DNA from: Polaribacter sp. Hel1_85 | Lineage (GTDB): Bacteria > Bacteroidota > Bacteroidia > Flavobacteriales > Flavobacteriaceae | Reading direction: 5' to 3' | Assembly: GCF_000766795.1 (NCBI RefSeq) | Contig: NZ_JPDS01000003.1 | Location: 248,001-312,000 of the forward strand | DNA length: 64,000 nucleotides | In this document: piece by piece, positions 24,249-45,336 of the stretch | Numbering within the stretch: the first letter of the stretch is position 1 | Layout of the letters: the number at the start of each line of letters is the position of its first letter | Notes under the pieces: generated by a model | What the model saw: only the letters and a program-made list of their open reading frames with translations | The model's database searches: none | Told to the model about the DNA's origin: nothing | Program-made: the position numbers and the translations under genes

Positions 24249-24361
24249 TTACATTTTTAAATAAAAATCTTTTGTCAAATCAATGTATTCTTTTGTGTAT
24301 TGATGACGTTCAATTTCTATAATTAAACTTTCTTCTTTTATTTCTGTTTGATCAAAAGAAA
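24249..24361 (-). pseudogene. Orphan 3' fragment of trmN6 (left direct repeat)
   Basis: The 113 bases match 44614-44726 except at one position (24258), and that difference is synonymous in the last codons (Leu TTA for TTG). The fragment encodes the last 37 or so residues and stop of the methyltransferase, without the rest of the gene. Similarity stops sharply at 24362. Confidence 0.9.
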
Positions 24362-24483
24362 GCACCGTTCCCTAGTATCTAGCAACAAAAAAAGCAGAGA
24401 GATAATGTTTCTATTTTAAAATTAAAACACTATAAAATCATAATACTCAAGGGACAGATATAACCTTTGAATAGGAAATAAAT

Positions 24484-24760
24484 AATGAGAAAACCATTGT
24501 TTTTACAAAAAAAATTACCTTTTATATTAATATTTCAGGTTGTGTTGAATTACATATAGGTAAAAAATCCAGCGAAGCAACAACTAAAGAAGCCCTAAAA
24601 CGGGTACATATAGCAATTAGTAATGCATAACGAAATTTCACAGATAATTATCATAAAATTAAGAAGAAATATTTGATAGGCTTTAATTGCTAATATTAAA
24701 GAATTATGAATATACGGTCTATTATCTTTGAAACATCTGTCTATCTGAATATTTCTAAAA
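24484..24760 (+). pseudogene. Decayed ISXO2/IS1595-like transposase remnant
   Basis: One frame (24496-24675) reads TIVFTKKITFYINISG, then VELHIGKKSSEATTKEALK, RVHIAISNA, a stop, and RNFTDNYHKIKKKYL. This resembles the C-terminal half of flavobacterial IS1595-family transposases (pattern FTDKSTSY...VHIAISNAKRN...YHKI..KYLQ). The catalytic Asp is replaced by Lys, an in-frame TAA replaces a Lys codon, and the continuation is frame-shifted. No terminal repeats are visible. The family call is from memory of the motif. Confidence 0.6.
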
Positions 24761-24818
24761 AAAAACTAAAAATCAATTAAAAAAATATTGATACGCTAGT
24801 TATTGAATAAAAAACCAA

Positions 24819-26357
24819 TTACTCTAAAAACCAATTATTTACGATATCAATTTCAACTGGTTTTATTGTTTTGTGAATAAATTCATTTTTTAATACATCG
24901 TATTCATATTCTTTTCCCCATTCAGTAACATTTTTAACAGTTTGTTTGATGCTTTCACATACAAAAAGTACCTCTGCATTAGTTATTGTTGGGTGAATAG
25001 ACATTCTAATCCATCCTGGACGTTCAACCATACAGCCTTCTGATATTTGCTTTTCAATACTTTTTGAGACTTGTTGATTTACATTCAATAAAAAGTGGCC
25101 ATACGTACCTGCACATGAGCAACCTCCTCGTGTTTGAATACCAAAACGATCGTTTAATAATTTTACGATTAAGTTGAAATGAACATTTTCAATATAAAAT
25201 GAAAATATACCTAATCGGTCTCTATGTTGTGCTGCTAATATTTTAAGGCTTGGAATTTTCGATAATTTATCAAAAACTATTTCATTAATCTCATGCTCTC
25301 TTTTTAGCATCTTTTCAACACCCATTTTTTCTTTAAGCTGAATAGCGAGTGCTATTTTAATGGTCTGTAAAAATCCTGGCGTACCTCCATCCTCTCTGCT
25401 TTCAATATCATCAATATAATCATGATCTCCCCATGGATTTGTATAACTAACCGTTCCTCCTCCTGGGTTATCAGGCACAATATTTTTATACAATTTTTTA
25501 TTAAAAACTAACACTCCTGAAGTACCTGGACCTCCCAAAAATTTATGTGGTGAAAAGAAAATAGCATCTAAATATGAATTTTCTTCACTTGAATGCATAT
25601 CTATTTCTACATATGGGGCAGAACAAGCAAAATCTACAAAACAAAGCCCATTATGTTGATGAATAATATTTGCAATCTTATGATACTCTGTTCTTATTCC
25701 TGTTACATTTGAACAGGCGGTTATAGAAGCAATTTTAATCGGTCTATCTTTGTACTTTTCTAATATTTTTTCAAAACTGTCAAAACAAATTAAACCTGTT
25801 TCTTCACACGGAATTATTTCAACATCTGCAATCGTTTCTAACCAAGATGTTTGATTAGAATGATGCTCCATATGTGTAATAAAAACAATCGGTTTTAACT
25901 CATCAGGAACATTTGTATGCTCTTTAAGATTTTCAGAAACTTTTAATCCTAAAATACGCTGAAACTTATTAATAACACCTGTCATCCCTGTACCATCGGT
26001 AATTAGAATATTATCTTCATTTGCATTTACATGCTTTTTGATGATATTTCTAGACTTATGATACGCCAATGTCATTGCTGAACCAGTAATAGAAGTTTCT
26101 GTATGTGTATTGGCAACAAAAGGACCAAATTGATTTAGCATTTTCTCTTCAATAGGTCTGTATAATCGTCCACTTGCAGTCCAATCTGTATAAATAATTT
26201 CTTTTTCACCAGAAGGAGAAAGAAACATTTGATGATTACCTACAATATGTTTTTTAAATTGTTGAAAATAAATCTCTAACTCAGAAGGTGTACTTTTAGA
26301 AAGTGCTATATCCTGAACAGGTTTTTCTTTTGAAAAAATATTAGATAAAAAACTCAT
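24819..26357 (-). CDS. Class V aminotransferase / cysteine desulfurase-like PLP enzyme
   Basis: The 512-residue cytoplasmic protein has the PLP-lysine motif FFSPHKFLGGPGTSGVL, the cofactor His and Asp (ITHMEHHSNQTSW, CFVDFACSAPYV), and a possible reactive-Cys loop TRGGCSCAGTYGH, as in CsdA/SufS-like enzymes. An N-terminal extension of about 60 residues precedes the core. It may release sulfur or selenium from cysteine-like substrates, but other class V reactions are possible. It is the last gene of the leftward island cluster, next to DsbD and thioredoxins, which fits a sulfur theme. Confidence 0.78.
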   Translation of the reverse strand: MSFLSNIFSKEKPVQDIALSKSTPSELEIYFQQFKKHIVGNHQMFLSPSGEKEIIYTDWTASGRLYRPIEEKMLNQFGPFVANTHTETSITGSAMTLAYHKSRNIIKKHVNANEDNILITDGTGMTGVINKFQRILGLKVSENLKEHTNVPDELKPIVFITHMEHHSNQTSWLETIADVEIIPCEETGLICFDSFEKILEKYKDRPIKIASITACSNVTGIRTEYHKIANIIHQHNGLCFVDFACSAPYVEIDMHSSEENSYLDAIFFSPHKFLGGPGTSGVLVFNKKLYKNIVPDNPGGGTVSYTNPWGDHDYIDDIESREDGGTPGFLQTIKIALAIQLKEKMGVEKMLKREHEINEIVFDKLSKIPSLKILAAQHRDRLGIFSFYIENVHFNLIVKLLNDRFGIQTRGGCSCAGTYGHFLLNVNQQVSKSIEKQISEGCMVERPGWIRMSIHPTITNAEVLFVCESIKQTVKNVTEWGKEYEYDVLKNEFIHKTIKPVEIDIVNNWFLE

Positions 26358-26407
26358 TTAAATTAATTGTATTTATTTTTTAATGTAAGCTATAGAGAAT
26401 AAAAAAA

Positions 26408-26522: not shown

Positions 26523-26524
26523 TC

Positions 26525-28516
26525 TTATAAGTTTTTTTTGAAATTTAAAACCCCATCTACTAACCATTTATTATATTCTTCAACATCTGGTGTGTAAGCA
26601 GTTGGATCTATTAAGTTCTCTTCTTTATGATCCATTAAAACATAAAAAGGTTGTGCATTGGCTCGGTATTTAATCGTTTGAAATTCACTCCATTTCTGAC
26701 CAATATATTTTAACTTTTTCCCTGGCCTTAATTTTGATGCTATTTCTTCTCCTTCTGGCAAAGGTCTCTTATCATCTACATATAAAGAAATCAGTACCAC
26801 TTCATTTTTTAAAATTGAAAGTATTTTATCTTTTGGCCAAACATTTTGTTCCATTTTACGGCAATTTACACACGCATATCCTGTGAAATCTAACAGTACT
26901 GGTTTTCCTATTTTTTTTGCATACGTCAATCCTTTATCATAATCATTAAAAGCCATAATATCATGCGGAGCCATTAAATGTGCGCCATCGGGTATTCCTG
27001 AATGATGCTCATTACCTTGTGTCCCTCCTGTTCTAGAAAATCCAACTCCATAAGGTGATTCACTATAACTTTGTGATGGTGGAAATGCGCTAATCAAATT
27101 CAATGGTGCACCCCATAATCCAGGGATTATGTAGATGGTAAATGTTAAGGAAAGAATCCCTAAACTAAGTCTTCCTACAGAAATATGTGATAAAGGAGAA
27201 TCGTGTGATAATTGTATTTTTCCAAATAAATAGAAAGCTAATACTCCAAAAATAGCAATCCAAATCGCTAAAAACACTTCACGTTCTAACCAATGCAATT
27301 GCAATACTAAATCTGCATTTGATAAAAATTTAAATGCCAATGCCAATTCTAAGAATCCTAAAACAACTTTAACGGTATTTAACCAACCACCAGATTTTGG
27401 CAACGAATTTAACCAACCAGGAAAAGCTGCAAACAATGCAAACGGAATTGCTAAGGCTAATGAAAAACCTAACATTCCTACAATAGGTCCTACTTGACTA
27501 CCTCCTGCAGCTGCTTCCACTAATAAAGTACCTACAATTGGCCCTGTACAAGAAAAAGAAACAATGGCTAAGGCAAGTGCCATAAAAAAGATCCCTATTA
27601 CTCCTCCTCGATCAGCTTGTGCATCTACTTTTGTTCCCCAACTACTTGGCAATACTATCTCGAAAGCGCCTAAAAAGGATACTGCAAAAACGATTAATAA
27701 TATGAAGAAAATAATATTAAACCACACATTTGTGGATAAGGCATTTAAGGCATCTGCACCAAAAACAGCACTGACAAGAATCCCTAGTAGCACATATATA
27801 ATAACGATAGATGCTCCATAAATTACCGCATTTTTAATACCTGCAGCTTTACTTTTACTTTGCTTGGTAAAAAAACTTACCGTCATAGGAATCATTGGAA
27901 ACACACATGGTGTTAACAATGCTGCAAAACCAGAGAAAAAAGCAATGATAAAAATAGTTAACAAACTTTTATCTGATGATTTTGATGTTTCATTTTTCGT
28001 TACTTTAGTTTTCTTCTCAGTTACTTTAATATTATTTTTAGCTATTGTTGAACTTGCTCCGTTTAATTTTCCTTTAATTGAAAACTCTAAATCAACAATG
28101 GTTGGTGGCAAACAGTTAGCATCATTACAAACCATAAATTCTACTTTACCTTCAATGTTCATTAAATTTTTGTTGCGTACTTTTATCCGTTGTTTAAACG
28201 TTGCTTTATTTGCGAAATATTTAATTTTCATTCCAAAAGTTGGATCATCAACAATATGCCCCTCTTCTTCTAAAGTATTTCCTACTAACTCAAAATCAGA
28301 TGATTTCGTAAAAGAAAAAGTAGTTGCTATTGGACCTCCTTCTGGTACTTTCTGAGAGTATAAATGCCAATTCTCTTCAATTGAAGAAGTAATTACCAAA
28401 TTGTAGTCCGTCTTTGAAATCTTTTCAACAGAGGTAGACCAAGATACTGGATCATGAATTTGTGAATACCCTAGAGAATAGATAAATAAGGCAAGTAATA
28501 AAATTATTTTTTTCAT
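26525..28516 (-). CDS. dsbD: Thiol:disulfide interchange protein DsbD
   Basis: The protein of about 663 residues has a signal peptide, an N-terminal periplasmic DsbD-alpha-like domain (to about residue 180), an eight-helix CcdA-like core ([24 protein letters not shown] and [12 protein letters not shown], each with the essential Cys), and a C-terminal thioredoxin domain with [17 protein letters not shown] (CVNC, about residue 548). It carries electrons from cytoplasmic thioredoxin to the periplasm. It starts 17 bases after the M16 peptidase gene. The frame is open 25 codons further up, inside that gene, but the signal peptide fixes the start. Confidence 0.9.
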
Positions 28517-28532
28517 TGTTTTTGTTAATTTA

Positions 28533-31337
28533 TTATTTTGGTTTAAATACAACTTCGTAAGATTTCCCTCCTTTAAGCACATGTTTCGCAATTCTCTGGA
28601 TATCCTCTTTTGTCATTTTTTTTACAATGTCTTCAAAGTTTTTAGGATCGTTCATATTTTCATTGTATCGAAAATATGCCTTAAGTACTTGCATGTCATA
28701 CCTGTTTTTATCTTTTGCTTGTATTCGTTCTTTTATAAAGTTTGTTCTTGTTTTATTTATATCTTCTTCTTTAATATCTCCATTGGCTATTTTTTGTAGT
28801 TCTGCATTCACAACATCAACTAGTTTATCCGCCATATCTGGGTTGCAATCAAATCTAAAAGACACCGTAACTTTTGATTTTGGTTCTCTAGTAAAACGAG
28901 CATTTGCCCTTGGACTATAAGCTCCACCTTCAGCTTCTCTTACCGTTTCGGTTACTCTTAATTGAAGAATATCACCTAAAGTATTCGTATAAATAACATT
29001 CCCTTTTGTATATAACATCTCTTTGCTGTAGGCAATATTAATAGTTGCCTTGGGATCCTCCATCTCTAAATAGATTTCCTTATTTATTTTATTTGAAACG
29101 CGTTCTGATGTATTATCTATAAATGTTTCATTCGTATTTTTAGTAGTTAAACTAGCTACATAAGTTTCTAAAAGAGGTTTTAATTGATTTTCTTTAACAT
29201 CTCCTACAATAAAAAACTCAAAGTCTGATGCATCTGTAAAACGGTCTTTGTAAATGGTTTTAATTTTTTCAAACGAAATATCACTTGCAAAATCTTGATT
29301 AAAGATGCGCTCTTTAGGATTGTTTTTACCATAAAGAGTTACCGTTAAACTATCCCTCATTTTTTCTCCAATATTGTTAGTTCTTCTAATAATATAATTA
29401 TCAATATTATTTTCAAGAACTTTAAAAGCTTGTTCGTCGAAACGTGGTTTTACAAAATACATATGAACCATTTGTAACATCGTTTCTACATCTTTTGTAT
29501 TTGACGATCCAGAAAGCCCTTCAGTAATACTCCCTAAACTAATATTTACATTAGCTGTTTTTCCAGCTAAAACCTTCTTTAAATCAATAGCATTAAAATC
29601 TCCTAATCCAGACGTTCTAATTAAGTTTCCAACCAAACTAGCAGAAGGTAAGTCCTCATCACTTAGTAATGATGTTCCTCCATAGCTCATGGCACTTAAA
29701 GATATTTTATCTTTTTCTTTATCTACAAACTTATAGTGTACTTTAATACCATTATTTAAGAGGTAGGTAGTAGCTCCTGTTTCTTTATTTAAAGTTGTTG
29801 TTTCAATACTTCCTGCTTCAATATTTAAACCCGATATTAATGTTTCTCCTCCTATTGATTCGCTATAAGGTTGAATTTCAGAATTGTTCTCTACCGATGT
29901 AATAATTTGTTTTGCATCGTCCTCTGTTAAATTTTCTTGTGATGCAACACCTGTAATGCTTAAAGTTCTGTTGTTTTTAGAATACAATCGTTTCATAGTT
30001 TCATGGAGTTCTTCTTTAGTTAGACCATTAAATATTTGTTTTACAGCTTCATATTTTTTTTCTAAATCCGATATACTCTTATTTTCTAAAAAATTATTTT
30101 GAATGTCTCTAATAATTGTTCTATGCCCTATAGCAGCTTTTTTAGCAATTCTATTTTCATATGAGCTTTTTAACTGGACAATTTTTCTATCCATTTCAGA
30201 TTGAGTAAAACCAAACTTTACAGCTCTTACAACCTCTGTTAGTCCTTCTGTAAATGCCTCCTTTTGTAGGTTTGGTTTAGGGCTTATTCTTAAACCTAAA
30301 CTATTTGTAGTTCTTGTCATACCACGATAACTTACTCTAGCACTTAAAAAAGCGGTTTGTGGTTTTTGCTGTTGTTCAGAAATTCTGGAATTTACCATAC
30401 TAGTTGCCATAGACTCTAATAAAGACCGTTTTAAATAACCTACTGTATTTATACCTTCTGTTTGTTTTTTATGACGAATACCAAAGCTAATACTTGCTGT
30501 AGAAATTTCTGGATCCATACTTAAACTGTACAGCATCTCATCATTCCCCGGAATATCAACAATAAAACGTTCTCTAGGATTTTTAACTGCTGGAATTTTT
30601 GAGAATTTTTTAATGATTTTTTGTTCAGTATCTTGTACATTTATATCTCCTATAATAGCGATAGCCTGTAAATCAGTTCTATACCAATCATGATAAAAAT
30701 CACGAAGTGCCTTATAATCAAAATTTTCTACAACAGACATTAAACCAATAGGCAATCTATTCACGTATTTTGAATGATTATATACAGTAGGCATTGAGGT
30801 TTTGAATAACCGCATACTCCCACTTTGTCGAGTTCGCCATTCTTCTTTTATAACTCCACGCTCAGCATCAATTTCTTCTTCTGTTAATAATAAATAATTA
30901 GACCAATCATTTAATATTGTTAAACAGGTATCTACCAAACCATCTTTAGTAGGAATATTACTTAAATTATAAACTGTTTCATCGAATGAAGTATAAGCAT
31001 TTATGTCTTTTCCGAAAACAGCTCCATGCTCTTGCAAAGTATTTAAAAGGCTTTTTCCTGGGAAATTTTTAGTACCATTAAATGCCATGTGCTCTAAAAA
31101 ATGAGCCAAACCTTGCTGGTTATCATCTTCTAAAATAGACCCTACGTTTTGAATAATATAATAACTTGCAGCACCTTTTACTACATCAGTATTTTTTATA
31201 TAATAGGTCATTCCATTAGGTAATATGCCTTTTTTAATGCTAACATCTTCAGTTAAAGGCATATTTAAGTTTAAAGATTGACAACTAGCAGAAAAACTAG
31301 ACGACAACACAAGTAATAATAAAATAAAATGTTTCAT
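28533..31337 (-). CDS. M16 family (insulinase-like) zinc peptidase, secreted
   Basis: The 934-residue protein has an N-terminal signal ending in a lipobox-like SASC (Cys19), then the inverted zinc motif HFLEH (residues 79-83) with the distal Glu in ERGVIKEEW, about 75 residues later. It has both M16 halves. M16 enzymes enclose and degrade short or unfolded peptides. It lies between three thioredoxin-like lipoproteins and dsbD on the same strand, suggesting that it acts on reduced peptides in the periplasm. Confidence 0.9.
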
Positions 31338-31545: not shown

Positions 31546-32928
31546 TTAAATCTGAAGTTCATCAAACAAAGTGATTAATTCACTTTTAGAAGGCCATGGA
31601 GCATTCCATGATACAATATCCCCATTTGGATCTAATAAGATAAAACGTGGTATACTGTTAATTTTATAAGCTGTAATAAAGTCCGAACTCCAATCCTTAT
31701 CTACAAGTAATTGAACGCCACCTAATTCTTTATCTGTTATCATTTTACTCCAAGCCTCTCGTTTATCTTGTGTATCTATAGAAATACTTATAAATTCTAT
31801 ATTCTTATCATGATATTTCTTTTCAACTTTTTCAAGGAAAGGTACCTGTCCTAAACATGGTCCGCACCAAGTTGCCCACACATCAATATATACATATTTT
31901 CCTCTAAAATCGCTTAAAGAACTTGTACTTCCTGCATTATTAATATAATCTGTAAAAACGGGAGAAGGTTGACCTTTTGATAGTGTCTTTAATATTTTAT
32001 ACTTTTCGGTAAAAACTTTGTTGTTTTTTTCTGAAGTAGAAACAGCAATAAAGGTCTTATAATACGTATCAATATTATCTGTATAAGCGATGTCATATTT
32101 TGCTGATGAACTTAATAAATCATTTTTAATATGTTCATTAGGGATGTCTCCAAATACTTTCAATTTCACTAAGTATTCATCAAGACCATCTTTGTCTGCT
32201 AATTGACGTGCTTTCAATTCAAAATATTGTTCAACCAAATCTTTATAATAACCCCTATGTTTATAAGCTTCTTCATTAACGTAATCCAATCCTTCTATTG
32301 GTTTAAAAAAATCTGGTGAAACTCTAAAATAGGGTTGCTCAATAAAATGTCCGTGTGTAGATTGGTATTTAATTATAGATAAAAGATAATAATTAATCAA
32401 TTCCTGACGCTCAAACTGAGCAAAATCTTTGGGAAGATCTGGAAAACTATCCAAATACTTTAAAAGATTTTCTTTAATCATTAAAGCTTTAGCACTAAAA
32501 TCTGACTCATTTAACAAACTATATGATTTATAATCTCCTCTTAAACTGTCTCTTCGAATATTGGTAGTAAGTAAATATTTAGTAGCATTAGAATCTGGCC
32601 CGGTTAATACAGAGGTCTTTCTCATATCTTTACCATTGGCTGTGAGGGTATATTCTCCTCCATTGGTCAAGTAAATATTAATTCTATTCATTCCTTTACC
32701 ACTAAACCTGTAAGTACCTGTTCCAGAAAATATGGTATCGCAAATAAACGAACCATCTTCTGCCGTTTCAACAGTATACCTACCTCTAGCATCTTGATGA
32801 GATAGTTTAAATTTTTTCGATGGGGCATCTGAAATGGTTCCAGATAACAAAATATAATCTTTGGGAGCTTCCTCTTTACAAGAGATTATTGTTATCACAA
32901 AACTTAATACATAAATTATTTTTTTCAT
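31546..32928 (-). CDS. DUF4369-TlpA thioredoxin lipoprotein (paralogue A)
   Basis: The 460-residue lipoprotein (ITIISCKEE, Cys17) has an N-terminal DUF4369-like beta domain (LLSGTISDAPSKKFKLSHQD), a long helical middle, and a C-terminal TlpA/ResA domain with YVYIDVWATWCGPCLGQVP (WCGPC near residue 356) and the cis-Pro SIPRFILLDPNG. It should reduce or isomerise disulfides at the envelope, recharged by DsbD. It is one of three intact tandem copies. Confidence 0.88.
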   Translation of the reverse strand: MKKIIYVLSFVITIISCKEEAPKDYILLSGTISDAPSKKFKLSHQDARGRYTVETAEDGSFICDTIFSGTGTYRFSGKGMNRINIYLTNGGEYTLTANGKDMRKTSVLTGPDSNATKYLLTTNIRRDSLRGDYKSYSLLNESDFSAKALMIKENLLKYLDSFPDLPKDFAQFERQELINYYLLSIIKYQSTHGHFIEQPYFRVSPDFFKPIEGLDYVNEEAYKHRGYYKDLVEQYFELKARQLADKDGLDEYLVKLKVFGDIPNEHIKNDLLSSSAKYDIAYTDNIDTYYKTFIAVSTSEKNNKVFTEKYKILKTLSKGQPSPVFTDYINNAGSTSSLSDFRGKYVYIDVWATWCGPCLGQVPFLEKVEKKYHDKNIEFISISIDTQDKREAWSKMITDKELGGVQLLVDKDWSSDFITAYKINSIPRFILLDPNGDIVSWNAPWPSKSELITLFDELQI

Positions 32929-32976: not shown

Positions 32977-34350
32977 TTAAATACCTAGTTCATTAAATAA
33001 CGTTATTAATTTACTATCAGAAGGTCGCGGAGCATTTGCGTTTACAATGTTACCTTTTGGATCTAATAAAATAAATTTAGGTATACCATTAATAACGTAA
33101 TCCTTCATAAACTTAGATTTAAAATCGTTGTCTGCGAACAATTGTACGCCTCCAAGTTCTTTATCTTTAACCATCTTTTTCCATTTTTCATAACTACTTT
33201 GTCTATCTACAGAAATACTTACAAATTCTATATTTTTACCATGATATTTTTTTTCTATTTCTTTTAAAGCAGGTATTTCACCTATACAAGGACGACACCA
33301 AGTTGCCCAAACATCTATATATACATATTTACCTTTTAAATCATCTAAAGAAGTAGTTCCTCCTGCATAATTTACGTAGTTTTCAAATTTAGGAGATGGA
33401 TTTCCTGCTTGAACCTTTTTTAAGTTTCTGTAAGACTCTGCTATAGTCTCTTTTTGTTTTTTATCAGTAGAAGCAGCCATAAAAAGGTTGTAATATTCAT
33501 CAAGATGTTCCGTTCTAGTTATACTAGCTATAGTTGAACTTAATAAATCATTTTTAATGGTTTGGGTTTTAGCAGTTGAAAAAGCTTTTAAAGCTGCAAT
33601 GTCTTCAGAAATATTTTCAGAGGTTTTAATTTCAGCAGCTTTATTCTTATAATAATTACTAACTAAAGATTTATAGGCTCTGGAATTTATATAATCTTCT
33701 TCGTTATCATAATCAATATTCTCTAAATCATTTAAGAAATCTGAAGGAACTTTAAAATCTTTATTCTTTGTATAATAAGCATGGTTAGATTCAAAGTTGG
33801 CCATCCTATTGAGATAGGTGTATTTTATATCTTTTTGCTGCGCTATTCTAAAACTTTCTGAAATACCTTTTGTATTACCTAATAGTTCAGTAAGAGAAGA
33901 AATGCTTGTATTCATTTTATCTTTAAATACGTCTTGCTTCAAAGTATAAATTTTTTCAGCACCATCTATTTCTTTCGCTTTTTTAGTTCTAGCTCTTAAG
34001 AAATTATTTTCTTCTGCTCCATTTCCACTAATAGCGACAGTACTATCTAATGCTTTTGAATCTGCATTAAGCGTTAAATCATAACCTTTTTCTAGATGAA
34101 TATTGGTTCGCATCTTATTATATATCATTTGATACAATCCTTTTTTACCTCTAATAGTATCTTTAAAAGATCCATCACTAGATACTTGTATTGTATCTTT
34201 AAATGATCTATCATTAAAACTTAACAAAATTATTTTTTTATCTTTATTGTTTAAGAACTTACCAGAGATCAGCGCATAATCTACAGGATTTTCTTTCTTG
34301 CAAGAAACGGTAAGTATAGCTATTCCTATTATAAATAATATTTTTTTCAT
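32977..34350 (-). CDS. DUF4369-TlpA thioredoxin lipoprotein (paralogue B)
   Basis: The 457-residue lipoprotein (IAILTVSCKKE, Cys17) has the same layout as its neighbours but a changed active site, WCRPC (about residue 352), with Arg instead of Gly. It also has the most diverged N-terminal and middle regions, rich in Lys and Asp. The Arg would shift the redox potential and substrate choice. It lies 48 bases upstream of paralogue A on the same strand. Confidence 0.87.
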   Translation of the reverse strand: MKKILFIIGIAILTVSCKKENPVDYALISGKFLNNKDKKIILLSFNDRSFKDTIQVSSDGSFKDTIRGKKGLYQMIYNKMRTNIHLEKGYDLTLNADSKALDSTVAISGNGAEENNFLRARTKKAKEIDGAEKIYTLKQDVFKDKMNTSISSLTELLGNTKGISESFRIAQQKDIKYTYLNRMANFESNHAYYTKNKDFKVPSDFLNDLENIDYDNEEDYINSRAYKSLVSNYYKNKAAEIKTSENISEDIAALKAFSTAKTQTIKNDLLSSTIASITRTEHLDEYYNLFMAASTDKKQKETIAESYRNLKKVQAGNPSPKFENYVNYAGGTTSLDDLKGKYVYIDVWATWCRPCIGEIPALKEIEKKYHGKNIEFVSISVDRQSSYEKWKKMVKDKELGGVQLFADNDFKSKFMKDYVINGIPKFILLDPKGNIVNANAPRPSDSKLITLFNELGI

Positions 34351-36408: not shown

Positions 36409-37566
36409 TTATTCAAGTCTAATACCATCCAAACAAAACATAGGAGCATATACCATGCTTCCATCAGCGTGAACATAATCTGAAGACACATTAAATAATA
36501 CCTTATCTACACTTCCTAAAGAGGTTAAATCTACTTTTTGCCAATCACTTAAAATATACTCATACTCAGGATTTAAAGCATCAACCTCTTCGTTTACAGC
36601 TAAATACCACTCTACCGTTCCTGTAGAACTTCCGCTTAAAAATCCTTCTATTGTCAATTTTACATAACCTTTATGTACGCTATCAAAAGCAGCATCATAG
36701 GCATCATCATAAGCAGCATAATAAACATCATCATAAGCATCGTCATAAGCTTCCTGCACCTCTTCTGGCGTCAAGGCTGGTATTTCAGCAAGAGCCGCAG
36801 TTCTTGCAACTTCTCCTGCTGCTTCTGCTGCAGGTACTACCGCTAATCCTGCCGCTTCTCCTGCTGGTTCTGCTACTTTACGTCTTTCTAAAGTTTCATA
36901 ACCTCTTAACCATACGGCTTCATAACCACCTGGTGCAGGTAGCCAAAACCTACCATAAAGATCAGTATCTGGATTTTCTATATTAGTGTTTTTTGTCTTT
37001 CCTCCATCAATTAAATAAGATTGCGTATCAGACTCATAATCATCAGAAAACACAGATCCATAATCGGCTAAAAGATACGTGTAAGACGTATTTGCAATAA
37101 GTACATGTGCTACCGTACCAGGTGTTTCTAAAGTAAAAAACGCATTATCTCCAGTGGTATTCCCAACCAGATAATTTTCTGTTTTATTTGGTTCATCGGT
37201 ATAAACACTAAAAGCTGTTGTATTTATTTCTTCTTGTTCTTCAGCAGCTGTTAGCCCACCAACTGGAGCAAAATCTGGGCTCAAATTCCAAGGAAAAGAT
37301 CGAAAATTTTTATTTGAGAGTGCAAACCCACTATAACTATCACCAGAACCTGTTACGTTTACAGTAATAATTCCAGATTCATTATCACCAGCAGTAAACG
37401 GAGCTGTTGGAATCTGATAGGTAAACCTATCTAAGGTTAGTTCATTAAACGTAATATCATTTGGGTAAGGTACTCTAAGTACAGAATTTTCCTCACAAGA
37501 GTTCAGCAATACTAAACCAATTACGGCAGCTGTAATTCTTAAATATTTTTGTATAAATTTCATCAT
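36409..37566 (-). CDS. DUF4465 lipoprotein with an Ala/Glu and Asp/Tyr repeat insert
   Basis: The 385-residue lipoprotein (GLVLLNSCEEN) matches DUF4465: SYSGFALSNKN early and TGTVEWYLAVNE...WQKVDLTSLGSVDKVLFNVSS...YAPMFCLDGI at the end. This beta-sandwich domain is thought to bind ligands at the cell surface. Residues of about 228-295 are a foreign-looking insert, first Ala/Glu/Pro-rich (EPAGEAAGLAVVPAAEAAGE), then tyrosine-acidic repeats (AYDDAYDDVYYAAYDDAYDA), just before the strand YVKLTIEGF. It lies 12 bases after susD, so it probably acts with SusCD. Confidence 0.8.
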   Translation of the reverse strand: MMKFIQKYLRITAAVIGLVLLNSCEENSVLRVPYPNDITFNELTLDRFTYQIPTAPFTAGDNESGIITVNVTGSGDSYSGFALSNKNFRSFPWNLSPDFAPVGGLTAAEEQEEINTTAFSVYTDEPNKTENYLVGNTTGDNAFFTLETPGTVAHVLIANTSYTYLLADYGSVFSDDYESDTQSYLIDGGKTKNTNIENPDTDLYGRFWLPAPGGYEAVWLRGYETLERRKVAEPAGEAAGLAVVPAAEAAGEVARTAALAEIPALTPEEVQEAYDDAYDDVYYAAYDDAYDAAFDSVHKGYVKLTIEGFLSGSSTGTVEWYLAVNEEVDALNPEYEYILSDWQKVDLTSLGSVDKVLFNVSSDYVHADGSMVYAPMFCLDGIRLE

Positions 37567-37578
37567 AGTATAAATTAA

Positions 37579-39018
37579 TTATTCGTATTGATCGTTTTGG
37601 TGCATTAAAGAATTCGCATTAATTTCATTAATTGGAATAGGGTAACATAAACGGAATAATTCTAATTGTCCATCATCTCTTAAGTTCTCTATCCAACGTG
37701 CACCAGAAGCATCTCTAAAGCGTGTAGAACCAAAGTATGCACTCTCATTTTCTATAAACGTTTCTATAAAATATTCTTTAAAGATAGACTCCATCAATTC
37801 TTGTTGCGTTGTAGGATTTAAACTAGGTATTATAGGATTTGTTCTAATACCTCGCATGGTATTTATCGGTGCTATTGCCGCTGTAATAGTAGCTCCAGTT
37901 CTTGCTAGTAATTCTGATTTCATAATATATAACTGAGGATACCTGAAGTAGTAAGTGTTGTATTTATGAGGTGTTGAGGAAGTATTATTATCTTCACCAT
38001 AATCTCCTAATCTTGCTACCTTTGTAAAGGTAAAAGTCTCTCTAGTTCTTTTACCCCATGCAGTACCTGTAACAACATCCCAACGTGGATCGACAGAAAA
38101 CCAATCATACCCTCTTCGTAAACCTGCATCAAGAGTTTCAGTAGTTGTATGAGGATTTCTATTTCCCTCATAAAATGGCAAACTAAACTTATAAAAATAA
38201 GAAGCCCAATTCCCTGCTCTATTATTTTCTTCTAGATAACCAGAAAATAAGTTTTCTTGAGAGTCCCATGAATCTTCATACACTTGTGCTAAATCTCCTT
38301 GCATAGCAAAACCAGGTATACTAGTGTTTAATACTTCGTTTACCAAGGTAAGCGCTTCATCTAGCCCTGTTGTTTCGTCATTAAAACCAGCTCTATACAG
38401 TAGTGTTTTTGCTTTTACAACTTTGGCATATTCTTTACACATATATCTACTACTAGTAAAGCTTGGCGCATTAGCAATAGCATAATCAAGATCTTCATAT
38501 ATTTTTAAATAACTATCACCAACATTTAATCTAGCCTTTGTAATATTCGCTAAAGTAACTACTTCATCACGAAACAAAAGACCATCAGGGTCACTATCAT
38601 CATTAGTCCACCAATGTCCAAAACTGTGAAAAATTTGAAGATGAGCCCACGCTCTTAGCAACCTAGCTTCACCAAGTAATTCTTTTTTAAGTTCTGCATC
38701 TATTTGATCATCATTTAGTCTTTCAATCCCACTTATAGCAAAATTAGATGCATTCACAGTTTCATAAGGAAATTGCCATGGAGCATAACTAACAGAGCTT
38801 GCCGTAAATTGGTTTGTTAATTCTGAACTAGTCCAATCTGTAAATCCAGCTCTAGCCGTTAATTTTGAAAAGTAACTACCCCCAAAGCTAGAACTAATTA
38901 TAGTACTATAAATTCCACTAACAGCTGATCGTGCATTTATCTCATTAGTAATTCCATTGATGTCATTTAGTTTATAACTTGGTTCTACATCCAAATTATC
39001 CGAACAAGCACTTATCAA
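37579..39018 (-). CDS. SusD/RagB-like surface lipoprotein (start region disturbed)
   Basis: The open frame of 479 residues from a TTG at 39018 has SusD features: SGIERLNDD, LLGEARLLRAWAHLQIFHSFG, the TPR-like helices, and the C-terminal EYFIETFIENESAYFGSTRF. The lipobox (IIFLISACSDN) straddles this TTG, so the true N-terminus must be further up, but no in-frame ATG exists. An ATG at 39068 would give a perfect signal if a run of seven A's had eight. SusD proteins cap SusC and capture nutrients. It lies downstream of susC. Confidence 0.85.
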   Translation of the reverse strand: MISACSDNLDVEPSYKLNDINGITNEINARSAVSGIYSTIISSSFGGSYFSKLTARAGFTDWTSSELTNQFTASSVSYAPWQFPYETVNASNFAISGIERLNDDQIDAELKKELLGEARLLRAWAHLQIFHSFGHWWTNDDSDPDGLLFRDEVVTLANITKARLNVGDSYLKIYEDLDYAIANAPSFTSSRYMCKEYAKVVKAKTLLYRAGFNDETTGLDEALTLVNEVLNTSIPGFAMQGDLAQVYEDSWDSQENLFSGYLEENNRAGNWASYFYKFSLPFYEGNRNPHTTTETLDAGLRRGYDWFSVDPRWDVVTGTAWGKRTRETFTFTKVARLGDYGEDNNTSSTPHKYNTYYFRYPQLYIMKSELLARTGATITAAIAPINTMRGIRTNPIIPSLNPTTQQELMESIFKEYFIETFIENESAYFGSTRFRDASGARWIENLRDDGQLELFRLCYPIPINEINANSLMHQNDQYE

Positions 39019-39081
39019 GAAGATAATCGCAATTAGCGGTATATAAATTATTTTTTTATTTTTAACATGTCTATATTTTTT

Positions 39082-42000
39082 TTAAAGTTTAACTTTTACA
39101 CCAACACTATATACTTGTGCAGAAGGGTAGGTACCATAATCAATTCCATCTGAAGCAAGAACTTGATTCGTTCCATTTGTAGTAGTTGCGGTATATCCAC
39201 CAGTAGGGCTAAACCCTGGATATTTAGTAATTGTAAACAAATTAGTACCTTGAAAAGTTAACTCTACACCATTTATTGTTGAGTTATTGAAAATTTCATT
39301 AGGAAGTTTATACGCTATATTTAAAGAATTTAAACGTATATAAGATGCATTGTATAAATACAAATCAGATATCTCATCATTATTAGAGATTCCAAAATCA
39401 CCTAATCTTGGATAGTCTGCATCATAAGGACTTAATAGTGTAGCACTTTGTCCTGCTACTAAATTACTTTGATTATAATTTCCAACACCACCTATATCTG
39501 CCCTTGGTAAATTCCATAATCTCTTGTGCCCATAGGCATAAGAAAATGTTGTATTAACTCGAAAACCTTTGTATGTGTAAGTAAGACCAAAGCCACCATA
39601 CCCTTTAGGCACAGAAGTTCCAAGATCTACTTTATCATCATCAAAATCAATAACGCCATCTGGACCTCCAACTCCATCTTCTCCAGCTTGATCAATATAG
39701 ATAATGTCTCCTGTAGATTCTGTATAGCTTCCATAATGAGTTTGTTGACCAGAAGAAGTAGTGTTATCTGTAAATGAATACGCATCCTCAGCATTTACAA
39801 AAAAACGTCCTGCAGTTTGTAATCCTAACCATCTACCTACAATATCACCAGCTTTTAATATTTGAGCTCCTCCTATTAATAATTCTTGATCTGCAGCATT
39901 AATGGATAGTATTTCTGTTTCATTTTTAGCCCAATTAAGGTTAAAGGTTAATCGATGATTTACATTACGAATAATATCATAATTAAGATTAAATTCAATT
40001 CCAGAATTTAGTGTTGAGGCTACATTTCCACTAACTGTTCTATATCCAGAACTACCAGGTAAAACTTCTCTATATATTAGATTCGTACTTTCTTTTTCGT
40101 AATATCCTACCGAACCAAATAAGCGATCATCTAATAAGCCAAAATCTAAACCTACATCAAACAATGCACTCTCTTCCCAACCTAAATTTGGATTTCCAAG
40201 ACCATCAGGTAAAATTGCAGGTGATTCATTATAGGTTGTAGCATCTACTAAAGTTATCCAATCAAAATTACCATTAGCTGGAGTACCTGTTATTCCATAT
40301 GATGCTCTTAACTTTAAAAAAGAAATATATTTTTTAACCTTCTCAGATTGCATAAAATTTTCTCCAGTAACTAACCATGCTGCAGATGCAGAGGGAAAAG
40401 TACCATAACGATTGTTTGGGCCAAAACGAGATGAACCATCTCTTCTAATTGTTCCGGCCAGGATATAACGTTCATCAAATTTATATTGTACACGTGCAAA
40501 TTGTGAGACTAATCCGCTTTCTGTTTTATCTTCATCTATATTAAGTATCTCTGCTTCAGATCCAAAATTATTAAGAATTTCATCATCTGGAAAATTACTA
40601 GCTTCCATAAGATAACTACGCCTAATACGACTCTCTGCACTATATCCTAATAAAGCTTGAATATCATGTTTATCACCAAATACTTTAGAATACGCTAAGG
40701 TATTATCCCAAACGTTTGCTGAACTTTTTGAATTAAAAAACCTTCTTTCTCCAAGACTTTGATCATCAGAACGAATAGATCCTTGTTGATAATAACGTAA
40801 ACTTTCTGAGTCTGAATAGCTATTAGAAAAAGCGGTCTTTAATTTTAAACCATCTACTATTTGATATTCTAAAGATCCAGTTACACTAAGAGTAAGTGAC
40901 TTTGAGTGATTGGTGTTACTTAAAGTAATATACGGGTTTTCTGTGTATTGATCTTCTGTATAAAAACTACCATCTTCATTAAAAGCCTTAATATCTGGGC
41001 GTATTTTTCTAAATGACTCTAACAGCTGATCTTTATTATCAGCATCTCTTACACCTCCACTTACTCTCAATTCAAATTTTAGATCCTCATTAATTCTTGT
41101 ATCAAAATTAAAACGACCACTATAGTTTTCCGTTTTACCTCCTTTAATGACACCTATTTGATCTATATATTTAAACGATGCAAAATAGGTACTTTGCTCA
41201 GACCCACCACGTACAGAGAAGTTATGATCTACACTTATAGGTGACTGTGAAAATTCTTTTAACCAATTATTCTCGCCATCATAATATGCATCAGGGTTTT
41301 GAACCAAATCAGACATATCCCATTCACTAGTATTTAAATCAAAAAAAGCCTGTTCGTCTAACCATTCTTCAGCACGAGTATCAAAAGACCCTCTAGCCCA
41401 AGTATCTTGTTTATGCATTGCTTGCGTAAAGTTTATATAATCATCTTTTTCAAAAAACTCATAGCCATTAAAATCAGGATCACTAACTGATGCACGCGTA
41501 GAGATTTCAAACGTAGGTTTTTGATTAAGCTTACCTCTTTTAGTTGTTACTAATATCACCCCACCGGCAGCTCTTGAACCATAAACAGCAGATGCTGAGG
41601 CATCTTTTAAGATGTCAATACTTTGAACATCATCAATATTTAAATTAAAAAGAGTATTAGCGACATCACCACTAGTAACCTCAAGGGCTTGTGGCACACC
41701 ATCAATAACCCATAAAGGTTGATTATTTCCTGTTAGAGAAGATGCTCCTCTAATAATTATATTTACATTTGAAGTTGGCGATGCTGAATTAATTTGAACA
41801 TTTACACTTGCAGCTCTACCTTCTAGTAAACTAGAAACACTTGCCCCCATTGGTGCAGTTTCAATCTCTTTAGCTGTTAGTCTAGAAATTACACCTGTTG
41901 CGTCTTTAACTTTAGTAGTACCATAACCTATTACTACCACTTCATCTAATTTAGCTTGACTAGGAATCATTTTCACATTAATAGTAGTTTTAGAGCCAAC

Positions 42001-42600
42001 TACTATTTCTTTTTCTTCAAAACCAAGATAACTAAATATTAATACAGTTTTTTCATTAGCATTACTTAATTGAATTTTGTAGTTACCATCAAAGTCGGTA
42101 AAAGTTCCACGTTTAGTGCCTTTCACAGATACACTTACTTCAGGAAGTGGCTCTCCCGTCTCATCTAACACCACCCCTTTTACAACTTGTTGTTGCATTT
42201 TTACGTCTTTAGCAGCCTCAATAATTAATGACGGTTTATTTTTAATCGAGATTGTTTTGTCTGCTGACAACTCAGAGATAAAATTACCATGAGACAAAAC
42301 TTTTTTTAAGAGTTTTTCTGCTCTAATATACCCTTTCTTTAATGAAATTTCACTATAATTTTCAAACAAATCTGCCTTATAAATAAAAGTGTAATTTGTT
42401 TGATGTTTAATCATTTTAAACACTTCATCTACTGTAACTATTTGATCAGTTTCAATTTTAATCTTTTCATTTTGTGAAAAGACTTCTTTAGGTGTAAAGC
42501 TAAAAAGAGTAGTGCAAAAAAGTAATAAGCATGTTTTCATAATTGCGGTTAATACCTTTTTTCGAAATAAAAAAAGAATGTTTGTAAAGTTTTTTTTCAT
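39082..42600 (-). CDS. SusC/RagA TonB-dependent transporter with STN signalling domain
   Basis: The 1172-residue protein has a long N-terminus and signal, then an STN domain (about residues 45-125, IETDQIVTVDEVFKMIKHQT), a carboxypeptidase-like domain (VVKGVVLDETGEPLPEVSVSVKG), the plug with DEVVVIGYGTTK and GRAASVNVQI, and a 22-strand barrel ending in VGVKVKL. STN domains contact FecR anti-sigma proteins, and fecR lies immediately upstream. It imports a ligand through the outer membrane and reports its presence. Confidence 0.94.
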   Translation of the reverse strand: MKKNFTNILFLFRKKVLTAIMKTCLLLFCTTLFSFTPKEVFSQNEKIKIETDQIVTVDEVFKMIKHQTNYTFIYKADLFENYSEISLKKGYIRAEKLLKKVLSHGNFISELSADKTISIKNKPSLIIEAAKDVKMQQQVVKGVVLDETGEPLPEVSVSVKGTKRGTFTDFDGNYKIQLSNANEKTVLIFSYLGFEEKEIVVGSKTTINVKMIPSQAKLDEVVVIGYGTTKVKDATGVISRLTAKEIETAPMGASVSSLLEGRAASVNVQINSASPTSNVNIIIRGASSLTGNNQPLWVIDGVPQALEVTSGDVANTLFNLNIDDVQSIDILKDASASAVYGSRAAGGVILVTTKRGKLNQKPTFEISTRASVSDPDFNGYEFFEKDDYINFTQAMHKQDTWARGSFDTRAEEWLDEQAFFDLNTSEWDMSDLVQNPDAYYDGENNWLKEFSQSPISVDHNFSVRGGSEQSTYFASFKYIDQIGVIKGGKTENYSGRFNFDTRINEDLKFELRVSGGVRDADNKDQLLESFRKIRPDIKAFNEDGSFYTEDQYTENPYITLSNTNHSKSLTLSVTGSLEYQIVDGLKLKTAFSNSYSDSESLRYYQQGSIRSDDQSLGERRFFNSKSSANVWDNTLAYSKVFGDKHDIQALLGYSAESRIRRSYLMEASNFPDDEILNNFGSEAEILNIDEDKTESGLVSQFARVQYKFDERYILAGTIRRDGSSRFGPNNRYGTFPSASAAWLVTGENFMQSEKVKKYISFLKLRASYGITGTPANGNFDWITLVDATTYNESPAILPDGLGNPNLGWEESALFDVGLDFGLLDDRLFGSVGYYEKESTNLIYREVLPGSSGYRTVSGNVASTLNSGIEFNLNYDIIRNVNHRLTFNLNWAKNETEILSINAADQELLIGGAQILKAGDIVGRWLGLQTAGRFFVNAEDAYSFTDNTTSSGQQTHYGSYTESTGDIIYIDQAGEDGVGGPDGVIDFDDDKVDLGTSVPKGYGGFGLTYTYKGFRVNTTFSYAYGHKRLWNLPRADIGGVGNYNQSNLVAGQSATLLSPYDADYPRLGDFGISNNDEISDLYLYNASYIRLNSLNIAYKLPNEIFNNSTINGVELTFQGTNLFTITKYPGFSPTGGYTATTTNGTNQVLASDGIDYGTYPSAQVYSVGVKVKL

Positions 42601-42640
42601 AAATTTGAATTTGGGTTAATTAATTAATTAATCTGACTAT

Positions 42641-42683
42641 AGGGAATAAAACGAACTGTGAGAGGTTGTGTTTTTTATTCCCT
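42641..42683 (-). other. Long-stem hairpin spanning the fecR stop codon
   Basis: GGGAATAAAA and TTTTATTCCC flank a loop of about 20 bases, with the fecR stop inside one arm. No T-run follows on the coding strand, so it is not a normal terminator. It may reduce readthrough into susC or protect the message. Confidence 0.4.
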
Positions 42684-43808
42684 TTTTTTTATTATTAAAT
42701 TTTTATTATTAAAACTATATTCCATGTCAATTGCACTTTTAATTTCTTGTAAGACTATTGATATAGGTTTTTTCTTACTTAACATTCCTGTAAATCTTAC
42801 ATTTTCAATTTCGACATCAGTGATAAAAATCTCTAAATCATACCAGCGTGATAAAACAACCATAATTTCTTTTAATGGTTTATTTGTAAAACTAAACATC
42901 CCATTTCTCCAACCAATTTCATCCTCTACATCTACTTTATAAACTTCAAACCTATTGTTTGTCTGAAAAATTTTGGATTGTTCACCTGGTTTAATAACTT
43001 TCTTATAAACACTATTAGATAAAGCAACACTACCTTCAATTAAGGTCGTTAAAACTACTGTTTCATCATGATATGCTTTAATATTAAATTCCGTACCCAA
43101 AACTTCTACATTTTGCATTTTCGATTGAACTACAAATGAGTCACCATTATGCTTAGAACTAGAAGAAACATCAAAATAAGCTTCACCATAAATAAGTTCT
43201 ACCTTACGTCTTTCCCCATCACTAAAATTTACTGGATACTTTAGTTTTGATTCTGAATTTAACCAAACCTTAGTTCCATCTTCCAATTCTATAAAAAATT
43301 GCCCTCCTCTAGGAATCGTTAAATAATTATAAACTATTTTTTTTTCAGTCTCATTAGACCCTGATTCGTAAATAATTTTTTTTCCATCAGAACTTATTTT
43401 TTTACTCTTATACTTTTTTCCTTTTTCTAAAGCAATTCTAGAACCATCTCCTAAAGTTAAAATAGCTTTATCTGTTCCAACAGTAATACTTTCATTAGTT
43501 ACAGTTTTAAAAGTTGTTTTAGTTAAAAAATATCCCGTTGCAATTAATACAATAATAGAAGCTGCATATTTAAAGAAGTTGTATTTAGATTTTGATTGTA
43601 TTTTCCCAATCATCCCTTTTAAAGGCTTTTTATAATCGAACTTAATTTTTGAGTTAAGCAAATAATGGAGTTCAACATACTCTTCAAAATAGATTCTATT
43701 TTCTTTTATCTCTAAACGATTCCTTAATTCAACTTGTTCTTCTAAAGTTGCTTTACTTTCAACAAATTTTATTATTAATTCATCAATGTTTTTAGTATTC
43801 ATTTTCAT
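42675..43808 (-). CDS. FecR family anti-sigma factor
   Basis: The 377-residue protein has an N-terminal cytoplasmic anti-sigma region, one transmembrane helix (about residues 78-96, FKYAASIIVLIATGYFLTK), the FecR periplasmic domain (LTIPRGGQFFIELEDGTKVWLNSESKLKYPVNF, GEAYFDV, VLGTEFNIKAY), and a C-terminal DUF4974 domain (FTNKPLKEIMVVLSRWYDLEI). It relays the SusC STN signal to the sigma factor. It is divergent from the sigma gene and upstream of susC. Confidence 0.94.
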   Translation of the reverse strand: MKMNTKNIDELIIKFVESKATLEEQVELRNRLEIKENRIYFEEYVELHYLLNSKIKFDYKKPLKGMIGKIQSKSKYNFFKYAASIIVLIATGYFLTKTTFKTVTNESITVGTDKAILTLGDGSRIALEKGKKYKSKKISSDGKKIIYESGSNETEKKIVYNYLTIPRGGQFFIELEDGTKVWLNSESKLKYPVNFSDGERRKVELIYGEAYFDVSSSSKHNGDSFVVQSKMQNVEVLGTEFNIKAYHDETVVLTTLIEGSVALSNSVYKKVIKPGEQSKIFQTNNRFEVYKVDVEDEIGWRNGMFSFTNKPLKEIMVVLSRWYDLEIFITDVEIENVRFTGMLSKKKPISIVLQEIKSAIDMEYSFNNKNLIIKKRE

Positions 43809-43856
43809 ATTATATAAGTATATGTAGTAATAATAATTAAAAACCCTCTATAATAA

Positions 43857-44456
43857 TTGTTTTTTTTATTAATATTGCAATTCAATAATAATTCTACAGC
43901 AATTTTCAAACAAGACGTAAATAGTGACCAAAAAAAGCTAAAAGAAGGGAACCCTCTTTACTTCAAACAGTTATACACTTTATATTATAAAAAACTGTGC
44001 GTCTATTCTTTAAACTACACAGACGACAAAGATCTTGCTCAAGATATTGTTCAAGATACATTTATGTACATTTGGGACAACAGAAAGAAAATTATTATAA
44101 CGACTTCTATAAATAGTTTTTTATATAAAATTGTTTATAACAAAATTATGGATCACTACAGAGGTAAGAAAAAAATAGACAAATCTCTTTTAGCATATTA
44201 TAATGACGCAATTGAAAAAGTGATTGATTCTAATAGTGATTACCAAGATTTAAGATTAAAAAAACTTGAAGAATGTATTCAGTTACTCCCTAAAAGGTGT
44301 AAACTCGTATTTTTAGAGAAAAAAGTTTCTAGGTTAAAAAATAAGGAAATTGCTAGTAATTTAAACATCTCTTTAAAAACAGTTGAAGGTCATATTGCTA
44401 GAGGCTATAAGTTTTTAAAAGAATGCATAAGTTTACGAACTTCTTCTTTAAGTTAA
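43857..44456 (+). CDS. ECF sigma factor (Bacteroidetes FecI-like)
   Basis: The protein of about 199 residues has sigma region 2 (YTDDKDLAQDIVQDTFMYIWDNRKKI) and region 4 (LPKRCKLVFLEKKVSRLKNKEIASNLNISLKTVEGHIARGYKFLKE), typical of the Bacteroidetes ECF family. No ATG precedes region 2; TTG at 43857 or TTG at 43875 (then QFNNNST) are the options. It should be held by FecR and, once freed, drive transcription of the sus-like operon. Its gene is transcribed away from fecR. Confidence 0.9.
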   Translation: MFFLLILQFNNNSTAIFKQDVNSDQKKLKEGNPLYFKQLYTLYYKKLCVYSLNYTDDKDLAQDIVQDTFMYIWDNRKKIIITTSINSFLYKIVYNKIMDHYRGKKKIDKSLLAYYNDAIEKVIDSNSDYQDLRLKKLEECIQLLPKRCKLVFLEKKVSRLKNKEIASNLNISLKTVEGHIARGYKFLKECISLRTSSLS

Positions 44457-44613
44457 TTTACAACTTATCAAGTATGTTCTTTTATAATTTATAATAAAAT
44501 GTTTCTGAAAACAAGCTATTTAAAATTAAATTTACTCTTTACAGTAATAGGCTTAACTATTATGATCGTTTTAACAATTCTAAAGACAATCTTTTCGAGT
44601 TTTCTAGTTAAAC

Positions 44614-45336
44614 TTACATTTTCAAATAAAAATCTTTTGTCAAATCAATGTATTCTTTTGTGTATTGATGACGTTCAATTTCTATAATTAAACTTTCTTC
44701 TTTTATTTCTGTTTGATCAAAAGAAAACGCTAATAAGCTCCTTTTAATTTCTGATGACGGATTTCCCTGAACTCTACAAACCTTATTTAAAAATAAATTA
44801 TTTTCTATTGCTAAAGCAATAAAATTAGCTTCTTCTTTAAAAGGAATAACAATAGCAAAAATTCCGTTTTCAGACAAAATTTTTGAAACCCCAACAATCA
44901 ATTCTTTAAAAGAAAGCGAAGTTGTAAAACGAGCTTTATTTCTAGCTTCATTTTCCGTTTCAAATTCATCAGTATAAAAAGGCGGATTAGAAACAATTAA
45001 ATCATAAACCTCCTCTTCCTCTGCTATTTCATCAGCAAATTCCTGAAAAGTAGCATTATAACAATACAAACGATCTCCCCAATCTGACTCTTCAAAATTG
45101 GCAACAGTTTGTTCATACGCATTTTCATCAACCTCAACAGCATCAATTGTCATCGCATCAGACCGCTGTGCAATCATTAATGAAATAACTCCAGTACCTG
45201 CACCAACATCTAAAATAGTATCAGGATAATTATCAACAGAACACCAAGCTCCTAATAAAACGCCATCTGTTCCAACTTTCATGGCAGTTTTATCTTGATG
45301 AATCGTAAACTCTTTAAATCGAAATGGTTTGCTCAT
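44614..45336 (-). CDS. trmN6: tRNA1(Val) (adenine-37-N6)-methyltransferase
   Basis: The 240-residue protein has an AdoMet-binding Rossmann fold (ILDVGAGTGVISLMIAQR), the catalytic motif SNPPFY of N6-adenine methylases (about residues 115-120), and the N-terminal KPFRFKEFTIHQDKTAMKVGTDGVLLGAW typical of YfiC/TrmN6. It methylates A37 of tRNA-Val. Its last 113 bases are repeated 20 kb to the left, marking the island boundary. It starts 1 base after the upstream membrane protein gene. Confidence 0.92.
   Translation of the reverse strand: MSKPFRFKEFTIHQDKTAMKVGTDGVLLGAWCSVDNYPDTILDVGAGTGVISLMIAQRSDAMTIDAVEVDENAYEQTVANFEESDWGDRLYCYNATFQEFADEIAEEEEVYDLIVSNPPFYTDEFETENEARNKARFTTSLSFKELIVGVSKILSENGIFAIVIPFKEEANFIALAIENNLFLNKVCRVQGNPSSEIKRSLLAFSFDQTEIKEESLIIEIERHQYTKEYIDLTKDFYLKM

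Follow-up and report, generated by a model that had tools for sequence, protein, structure and literature searches.

The window analyzed here is a 64,000-nt stretch of Polaribacter sp. Hel1_85 (own genome labelled G000, four assembled contigs) that contains a 20-kb island between a LYS9-like gene and a methyltransferase gene called trmN6. The name trmN6 is putative and was taken from an earlier note on this DNA; its Pfam support is PF05175 (MTS). Comparison with relatives showed that positions 24362–44613 (20,252 bp) were inserted at the 3′ end of trmN6, with the target gene left whole and the displaced neighbour carrying an orphan copy of its tail. The insertion is tentatively explained (probability about 0.45) by host capture, through one crossover, of DNA carrying a trmN6 tail. 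The features at the island borders were as follows.

22875–24248 (+), LYS9-like saccharopine-dehydrogenase-like gene, left neighbour (PF16653, PF03435); its stop abuts the orphan tail
24249–24361 (−), orphan trmN6 tail, last 113 bp, with the native LYS9 junction retained (112/113 vs 44614–44726; contiguous with LYS9 in genome G029, 182/212)
44614–44726 (−), right repeat copy, 3′ end of the intact trmN6 (by pairwise identity to the orphan tail)
44614–45336 (−), intact trmN6-like methyltransferase, 240 aa, target gene (PF05175 MTS; best DNA match in another genome 84%, 59 genomes searched)

The two copies were compared directly, and 112 of their 113 bases were identical. The sole mismatch (24258, T vs C in the other copy) falls in a Leu codon (TTA/TTG), the third before the stop. 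Homology ends at the trmN6 stop, with 0 bp beyond. The left copy lacks a gene start and adjoins the LYS9-like stop (gap 0). The pair was confirmed as real and not a chance match, since a scan of 1,192,210 bp of the own genome (all of contig C3, 752,210 bp, and 440,000 bp of C2) for gene tails with orphan copies gave, apart from it, just one weak pair (53 bp, 85%). Direct-repeat pairs in general (40–1500 bp, within 60 kb) numbered 277 in C3 vs 4 in 400 kb of C2.

For the state of the site in relatives, 80 named loci were chosen by similarity to the methyltransferase; comparison sets had one genome per species, and the genus set apparently included both Polaribacter and Tenacibaculum. A LYS9-like gene lies convergently downstream of the methyltransferase in 57/80 named loci and was not found inside the locus in 23/80. 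Among the 57, the gap between the two genes is ≤10 bp in 16 loci, 11–300 bp in 16, and >300 bp in 25, and in several relatives (e.g. L002, L003, L004, and L006) the genes stand stop to stop with a gap of 0. The LYS9 end and the window orphan align contiguously to LYS9 and trmN6 of G029, a near relative of the window genome as judged from LYS9 and dnaE, in which a search with the island gave, among the matches listed, thioredoxin-type pieces only. Block 24362–44613 is regarded as an insertion because relatives carry the convergent junction and the alignment across it is contiguous in G029. As with integrase islands, a direct repeat of a 3′ end stands at both borders with the gene intact, the empty site occurs in relatives, and the site has been reused.

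The earlier note was partly borne out by these results. It had described the 113-bp repeat with an intact gene end on the right (here a 240-aa open reading frame, ORF) and an orphan on the left, a preserved convergent junction, and a 3′-end insertion that left the gene whole, and it had foreseen the two genes adjacent without the island, an arrangement found as convergent in many relatives and as stop to stop in some. Its reading of the single mismatch as evidence for two lineages found no support: the trmN6 tail is 83–89% identical, i.e. about 11–17% different, in 14 relatives vs 1/113 between the window copies, and the incoming tail therefore came from the host's own strain or one very close to it.

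Second tails were searched for in 166 genomes of the genus, 397 of the family, 395 of the order, and 395 of the phylum (overlapping sets). The searches were insensitive to short or decayed copies, and the genus search missed a copy in G017 that was later found as L093. The tail matched in 140/166 genomes of the genus, with a real second copy in the own genome only, and in 338/397 of the family, with second copies in G000 and G373. At the order level (227/395), two rows were obtained in G000, G768, and G697, and also in G393, where they come from a split gene; the phylum search (87/395) gave no new second copies. Second rows in G070, G071, G018, and G393 were discarded as split alignments of a single gene.

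In G373, a 261-bp tail copy (95%) is separated from the gene by a 2.2-kb insert coding for a PF03601/YeiH-like protein and a DUF5395 protein. Homology runs 5 bp past the trmN6 stop, and the differences between the copies are distributed over codon positions 1:2:3 as 4:4:6, including a nonsense, a pattern of plain orphan decay. G768 carries an almost whole decayed trmN6 copy beside the intact one, with what look like genes for a TonB receptor and for GLPGLI proteins in between. The two copies belong to separate supported clades, and it is the remnant that stands out, since G919 comes closest to the intact copy and to most of the flanking sequence. In G697 (L218), a divergent whole methyltransferase adjoins a decaying one with one 286-aa ORF between them, possibly a gene replacement in progress. 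Five recurring weak tail matches in G013 belong to one common sequence and were taken as chance; a match of this type in L144 lies within an ORF that is presumably transposase-like and is broken in L147. Tail lengths across the cases are about 62–77, 69, 113, 116, 261, and about 730 bp, and we infer at least six separate insertions (window, G373, L084, L098, L082, and G768). One further locus, L132 (CALPUN020000104.1), labelled as a Bifidobacterium breve metagenome-assembled genome, has a methyltransferase 58% identical to that of the window next to rimM, rpsP, and dnaE homologs and probably comes from a bin that is mixed or carries a wrong label.

An open scan for tail copies at any gene of the 80 named loci (1083 ORFs) found three, all at the methyltransferase (L082, L084, and L093), and 14 further genus loci gave none; the scan recovered 2/3 known cases. 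A stricter per-gene scan returned orphan tail copies in 7 loci of 118 methyltransferase tails, three of them (window, G373, and G768) included because already known, and 20 loci had been picked for long gaps or larger distance. From 1297 other tails it gave one row labelled orphan (E 9e-9), which falls among thioredoxin-domain paralogs of the window itself, plus five labelled as paralogs. When only the 80 named loci, which were not so picked, were counted, copies were present for 4/79 trmN6 tails vs 0/833 other tails (p ~5e-5), the loci being centred on the methyltransferase, so that other genes had less downstream sequence on average. L109 and L084 represent one shared event, and at 3/79 the value is p 6e-4. 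A laxer limit (1e-4) gave 14 downstream rows vs 5 opposite-strand and 1 upstream control rows, and the best control match (6e-7, in L109) was ascribed to a palindrome. Weak tail matches in L092, L113, and L098 were excluded from the statistics. L329 reached 1.8e-10 in the laxer search and was not returned by the stricter scan; its copies do not abut a gene stop. Judged by these sequence comparisons, tail duplication looks specific to trmN6.

In the Tenacibaculum loci that were inspected, where several copies are short, each tail copy has its end no more than about 16 bp from the stop of a gene convergent to it (positions extrapolated). The L107 sequence that starts 14 bp beyond the methyltransferase stop aligns (89.5% over 3.2 kb) with L098 sequence starting 3332 bp beyond the stop there, and a 3.3-kb insert is therefore placed at the stop in L098. 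The own tail of L109 (−124) and its downstream sequence align contiguously with the orphan of L084 and the sequence downstream of that, and a further 1.5-kb insert is therefore assigned to L084, where the nearer tail copy is 89% alike and the farther 74%. In both nested pairs (L109/L084 and L107/L098), the newer insert adjoins trmN6 and the older tails lie further out. Pfam matches were obtained for 4/8 insert proteins of L082, L084, L093, and L098 (hydrolase, DinB, DJ-1/PfpI, and cNMP-binding). Two ORFs in the methyltransferase–LYS9 gap of T. finnmarkense (L101:14747–15283, −) and T. piscium (L135:16241–16840, −) have the look of a REP-associated tyrosine transposase (RAYT); neither had a Pfam match, and the identity was not adopted.

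A 20-bp near-palindrome, GGCACCAGTATACTGATGCC, occurs in Tenacibaculum trmN6 tails and is retained in the copies. Allowing ≤4 mismatches, its occurrences across 2.2 Mb (119 mostly trmN6-centred loci) were confined to trmN6 tails, the copies downstream of them, and three further sites (L074, L085, and L345). For 10 copies and one tail, 3/5 measures went beyond shuffles (cells paired, 1/500; cells changed on both sides, 6 vs 2.5, 1/500; covariation score, 0/500), with 7/11 pairs invariant and the rows related, and two did not (140/500 and 459/500). This suggests that the Tenacibaculum orphans may be maintained as hairpins, possibly as terminators. The hairpin reading does not extend to the window: a terminator role of its orphan was rejected (no terminator-like site; fold z-score −1.25, not significant). 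A dyad of the window tail, ATCAAT...ATTGAT, was also rejected as a recombinase core, its 7/9 matched arm bases being the commonest best score among random 113-mers (1001/2000).

Four recombinases of the own genome, together with an additional ORF taken from the same loci, served as queries, and the distant recombinase of the own genome was recovered with them. No recombinase-like match was obtained in the window (tblastn), in 106/107 loci, or in 20 later loci, by protein similarity only, through which unrelated families would be missed; the single match in the 107 loci was the own distant recombinase in L171. In the island, no integrase gene or remnant was found (gap translations not searched singly), an IS1595-like fragment only, and no integron integrase stood beside an array in the window or the loci scanned. 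The earlier note's statement that no integrase remains inside therefore held for the window; the former presence of one, which it had implied, was not supported. The other elements it had anticipated at trmN6 3′ ends do recur in other Flavobacteriaceae as insertions with orphan tails, none seen with an integrase. The enzyme in L171 (11900–13069, +) is a 389-aa tyrosine recombinase with a Phage_int_SAM_4 domain, located in the own genome about 345 kb from the island. It is a candidate for action in trans; its membership in a sister element was rejected, no link having been found. The trmN6 tail was absent from phage records and from two IMG/VR scans, and the plasmid collection gave two weak matches, a complete annotated gene and a second hit that carries no annotation. 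A literature search (subscription papers mostly outside it) found no paper joining trmN6 with an integrase and attachment site, or yfiC with an integration site and genomic island, and the titles and abstract openings that it listed had nothing about this site.

The island itself holds the following features.

24362–24818 (no strand), left insert end without a listed gene (no ORF ≥80 aa; six-frame translation)
24510–24675 (+), decayed fragment like an IS1595-type transposase C-terminus (80% DNA identity to G000:C2:712532–712697, whose ORF matches PF12762; fragment itself without Pfam match)
24819–26357 (−), class-V aminotransferase, cysteine-desulfurase-like (PF00266; SufS model below cut-off)
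26525–28591 (−), DsbD-like thiol-disulfide interchange protein (PF02683, PF11412)
28533–31337 (−), M16 peptidase (PF00675, PF05193)
31546–32928 (−), TlpA/ResA-like thioredoxin 1 (PF08534, PF13905)
32977–34350 (−), TlpA/ResA-like thioredoxin 2 (PF13905)
34515–35894 (−), TlpA/ResA-like thioredoxin 3 (PF13905)
36409–37566 (−), DUF4465 protein (PF14717)
37579–39018 (−), SusD-like lipoprotein (PF14322, PF07980)
39082–42600 (−), SusC/RagA TonB-linked outer-membrane protein (TIGR04056 above cut-off)
42675–43808 (−), FecR-like anti-sigma factor (PF04773, PF16344)
43857–44456 (+), extracytoplasmic function (ECF) sigma factor, stop 157 bp from the trmN6 stop (TIGR02985 above cut-off)

A SusC/SusD pair together with an ECF/FecR regulator characterizes the island as a SusCD nutrient-uptake locus, and no glycan-degrading enzyme of a polysaccharide utilisation locus was seen among the scanned island genes. 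The cargo may serve, we infer, nutrient uptake followed by thiol and sulfur chemistry. A close donor of the cluster was not found among the matches listed (searches of 36 and 166 genomes); related clusters stand at other sites in G099 and G034 (67–78% DNA identity, piecewise). None of the 80 named loci had the cluster beside trmN6, and what appeared there were distant single-gene matches only (e.g. SusC, 35%, 8.3 kb downstream in L066; ECF, 37%, upstream in L024). A foreign composition of the island was rejected (GC 0.305 vs 0.296, with 30/139 background windows more deviant, hence no foreign signature). The own genome has a parallel cluster at C3:607978–621275 (L170), with ECF, FecR, SusCD, DUF4465, TlpA, DsbD, and aminotransferase genes in near-identical order and 32–69% protein identity; compared with the island, it has no M16 match and its ECF gene is on the opposite strand. 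A further aminotransferase/DsbD pair lies at C3:363381–367314. On the other side of the methyltransferase, between it and a tRNA-Ser gene, a 173-aa ORF without family match (45338–45859, −) had no match in 118 relatives' loci, and lineage-specific DNA therefore stands on both sides of the methyltransferase. The tRNA-Ser (GGA; 46009–46096, −), between rimM and the methyltransferase, is single copy in the window and occurs in relatives too (43 matching rows).

Under the single host crossover that is tentatively preferred, the incoming DNA would have carried a trmN6 tail beside the cargo and would probably have been ligated into a circle. One host (RecA-type) crossover within the tail would insert the circle and give, in order, intact trmN6, cargo, and a partial tail copy, with no need for an integrase; a crossover between the two 113-bp copies could excise the block and restore the empty site. 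A tail of such close origin fits a short-homology crossover better than one from another species. In the two clean cases (window and G373), the copies were near-identical at insertion, as the crossover needs, and the absence of recombinase matches, the variable tail lengths, and the end of homology at the trmN6 stop count in its favour. In PMC3240628, a duplication-diagnostic PCR product is given for 56/60 E. coli clones, with duplications of 109–950 bp in the 14 sequenced, alike in kind and size to that of the window, which its authors attributed to one crossover with a circular molecule. Three points weigh against this explanation: gene specificity (4/79 vs 0/833) is expected of a dedicated site and unpredicted by host recombination alone, a donor with the cluster directly downstream of trmN6 was not found among the matches listed, and the G768 copies come from different lineages, so that a crossover between near-identical tails fails there. 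Specificity could have arisen by selection, in that at touching convergent genes only tail-duplicating insertions would keep both genes and their ends working.

That same gene specificity, the classic geometry, the serial stacking in Tenacibaculum, where filled and empty sites form nested pairs, and the 20-bp near-palindrome kept in the copies all argue for the tail as an attachment site. DNA would there be stacked by a site-specific recombinase, probably of the tyrosine type, that either disappeared from the insert or works in trans from another place. This is the main rival and is judged somewhat less probable than the crossover. Against it, the inserts have no recombinase-like match, the tail was absent from phage records and IMG/VR with two weak plasmid matches, the window dyad is no better than chance, and a divergence of ~11–17%, not of 1/113, would be expected for a tail of another species. 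It is rather unlikely that the tail would be a dedicated stacking site of the Flavobacteriaceae, with a trans-acting recombination system adding ordinary gene blocks serially, each leaving the previous neighbour a spare tail that in Tenacibaculum was kept and refined to a hairpin, possibly the neighbour's terminator. Homology-facilitated illegitimate recombination with DNA of another species, one end crossing in trmN6 or upstream and the other joining randomly, is quite improbable. It is invoked in PMC5361080 for orphaned 3′-region arrays in type VI secretion system (T6SS) and Rhs loci, and the array order it predicts (newest insert by the anchor gene, older tails outward) was seen in L109/L084 and L107/L098. 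The different clades of the G768 copies also suit it, but there the remnant, not the intact copy, stands apart, and the window copies are too similar for a donor of another species. The trmN6 trees give no foreign origin (p-AU, approximately unbiased test, 0.395 for grouping with G029): LYS9 groups with G029, trmN6 has no resolved placement, and the test does not reject the G029 grouping, so a foreign origin of the window trmN6 was dropped. The authors of PMC3240628 expected deletions from this process and gave duplications another cause. Equally slight odds are given to a local process, in which a staggered break or template switching copied the host's own 113 bp during capture of foreign DNA; it would account for the near-identical copies, yet random end points are expected of it and both clean cases end at the trmN6 stop. 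An assembly artefact, for which nothing speaks beyond the repeat itself, is the least probable, because either copy continues into a flank of its own and G029 shows the left junction as well; comparable arrangements also occur in other genomes.

Four known systems offer parallels. SGI1 is an integrative island at the 3′ end of trmE (PMC8409611); as there, insertion is at the 3′ end of a tRNA-modification gene, the gene stays whole, and the site is recurrent, whereas in the trmN6 cases no integrase was found, tail length varies, and no free form was found. The orphan 3′-region arrays of T6SS effector-immunity and Rhs loci (PMC5361080) share the intact anchor with new genes behind it and older remnants outward, but at trmN6 the anchor is a housekeeping methyltransferase, the cargo is metabolic-looking or of no known role, and the window tails are near-identical. 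In E. coli, linear DNA that recircularises and inserts by a single crossover (PMC3240628) likewise leaves a partial duplication of the homologous gene end (109–950 bp), in a laboratory plasmid experiment at lacZ and not at a natural hotspot. Transfer hotspots without mobile elements (PMC5635113) resemble trmN6 in variable cargo between fixed core genes and the lack of integrases; the model given there is a double crossover in both flanks, which presumably leaves no orphan tail.

Many bacterial transfer hotspots have no integrases, and the route by which their cargo enters is described as an open question (PMC5635113). At the trmN6 hotspot, entries leave a readable scar, from which the order, relative age, and crossover position are legible in the sequence, and these scars are testable in culturable marine strains. 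The finding links the ends of housekeeping genes with the spread of nutrient-uptake clusters.

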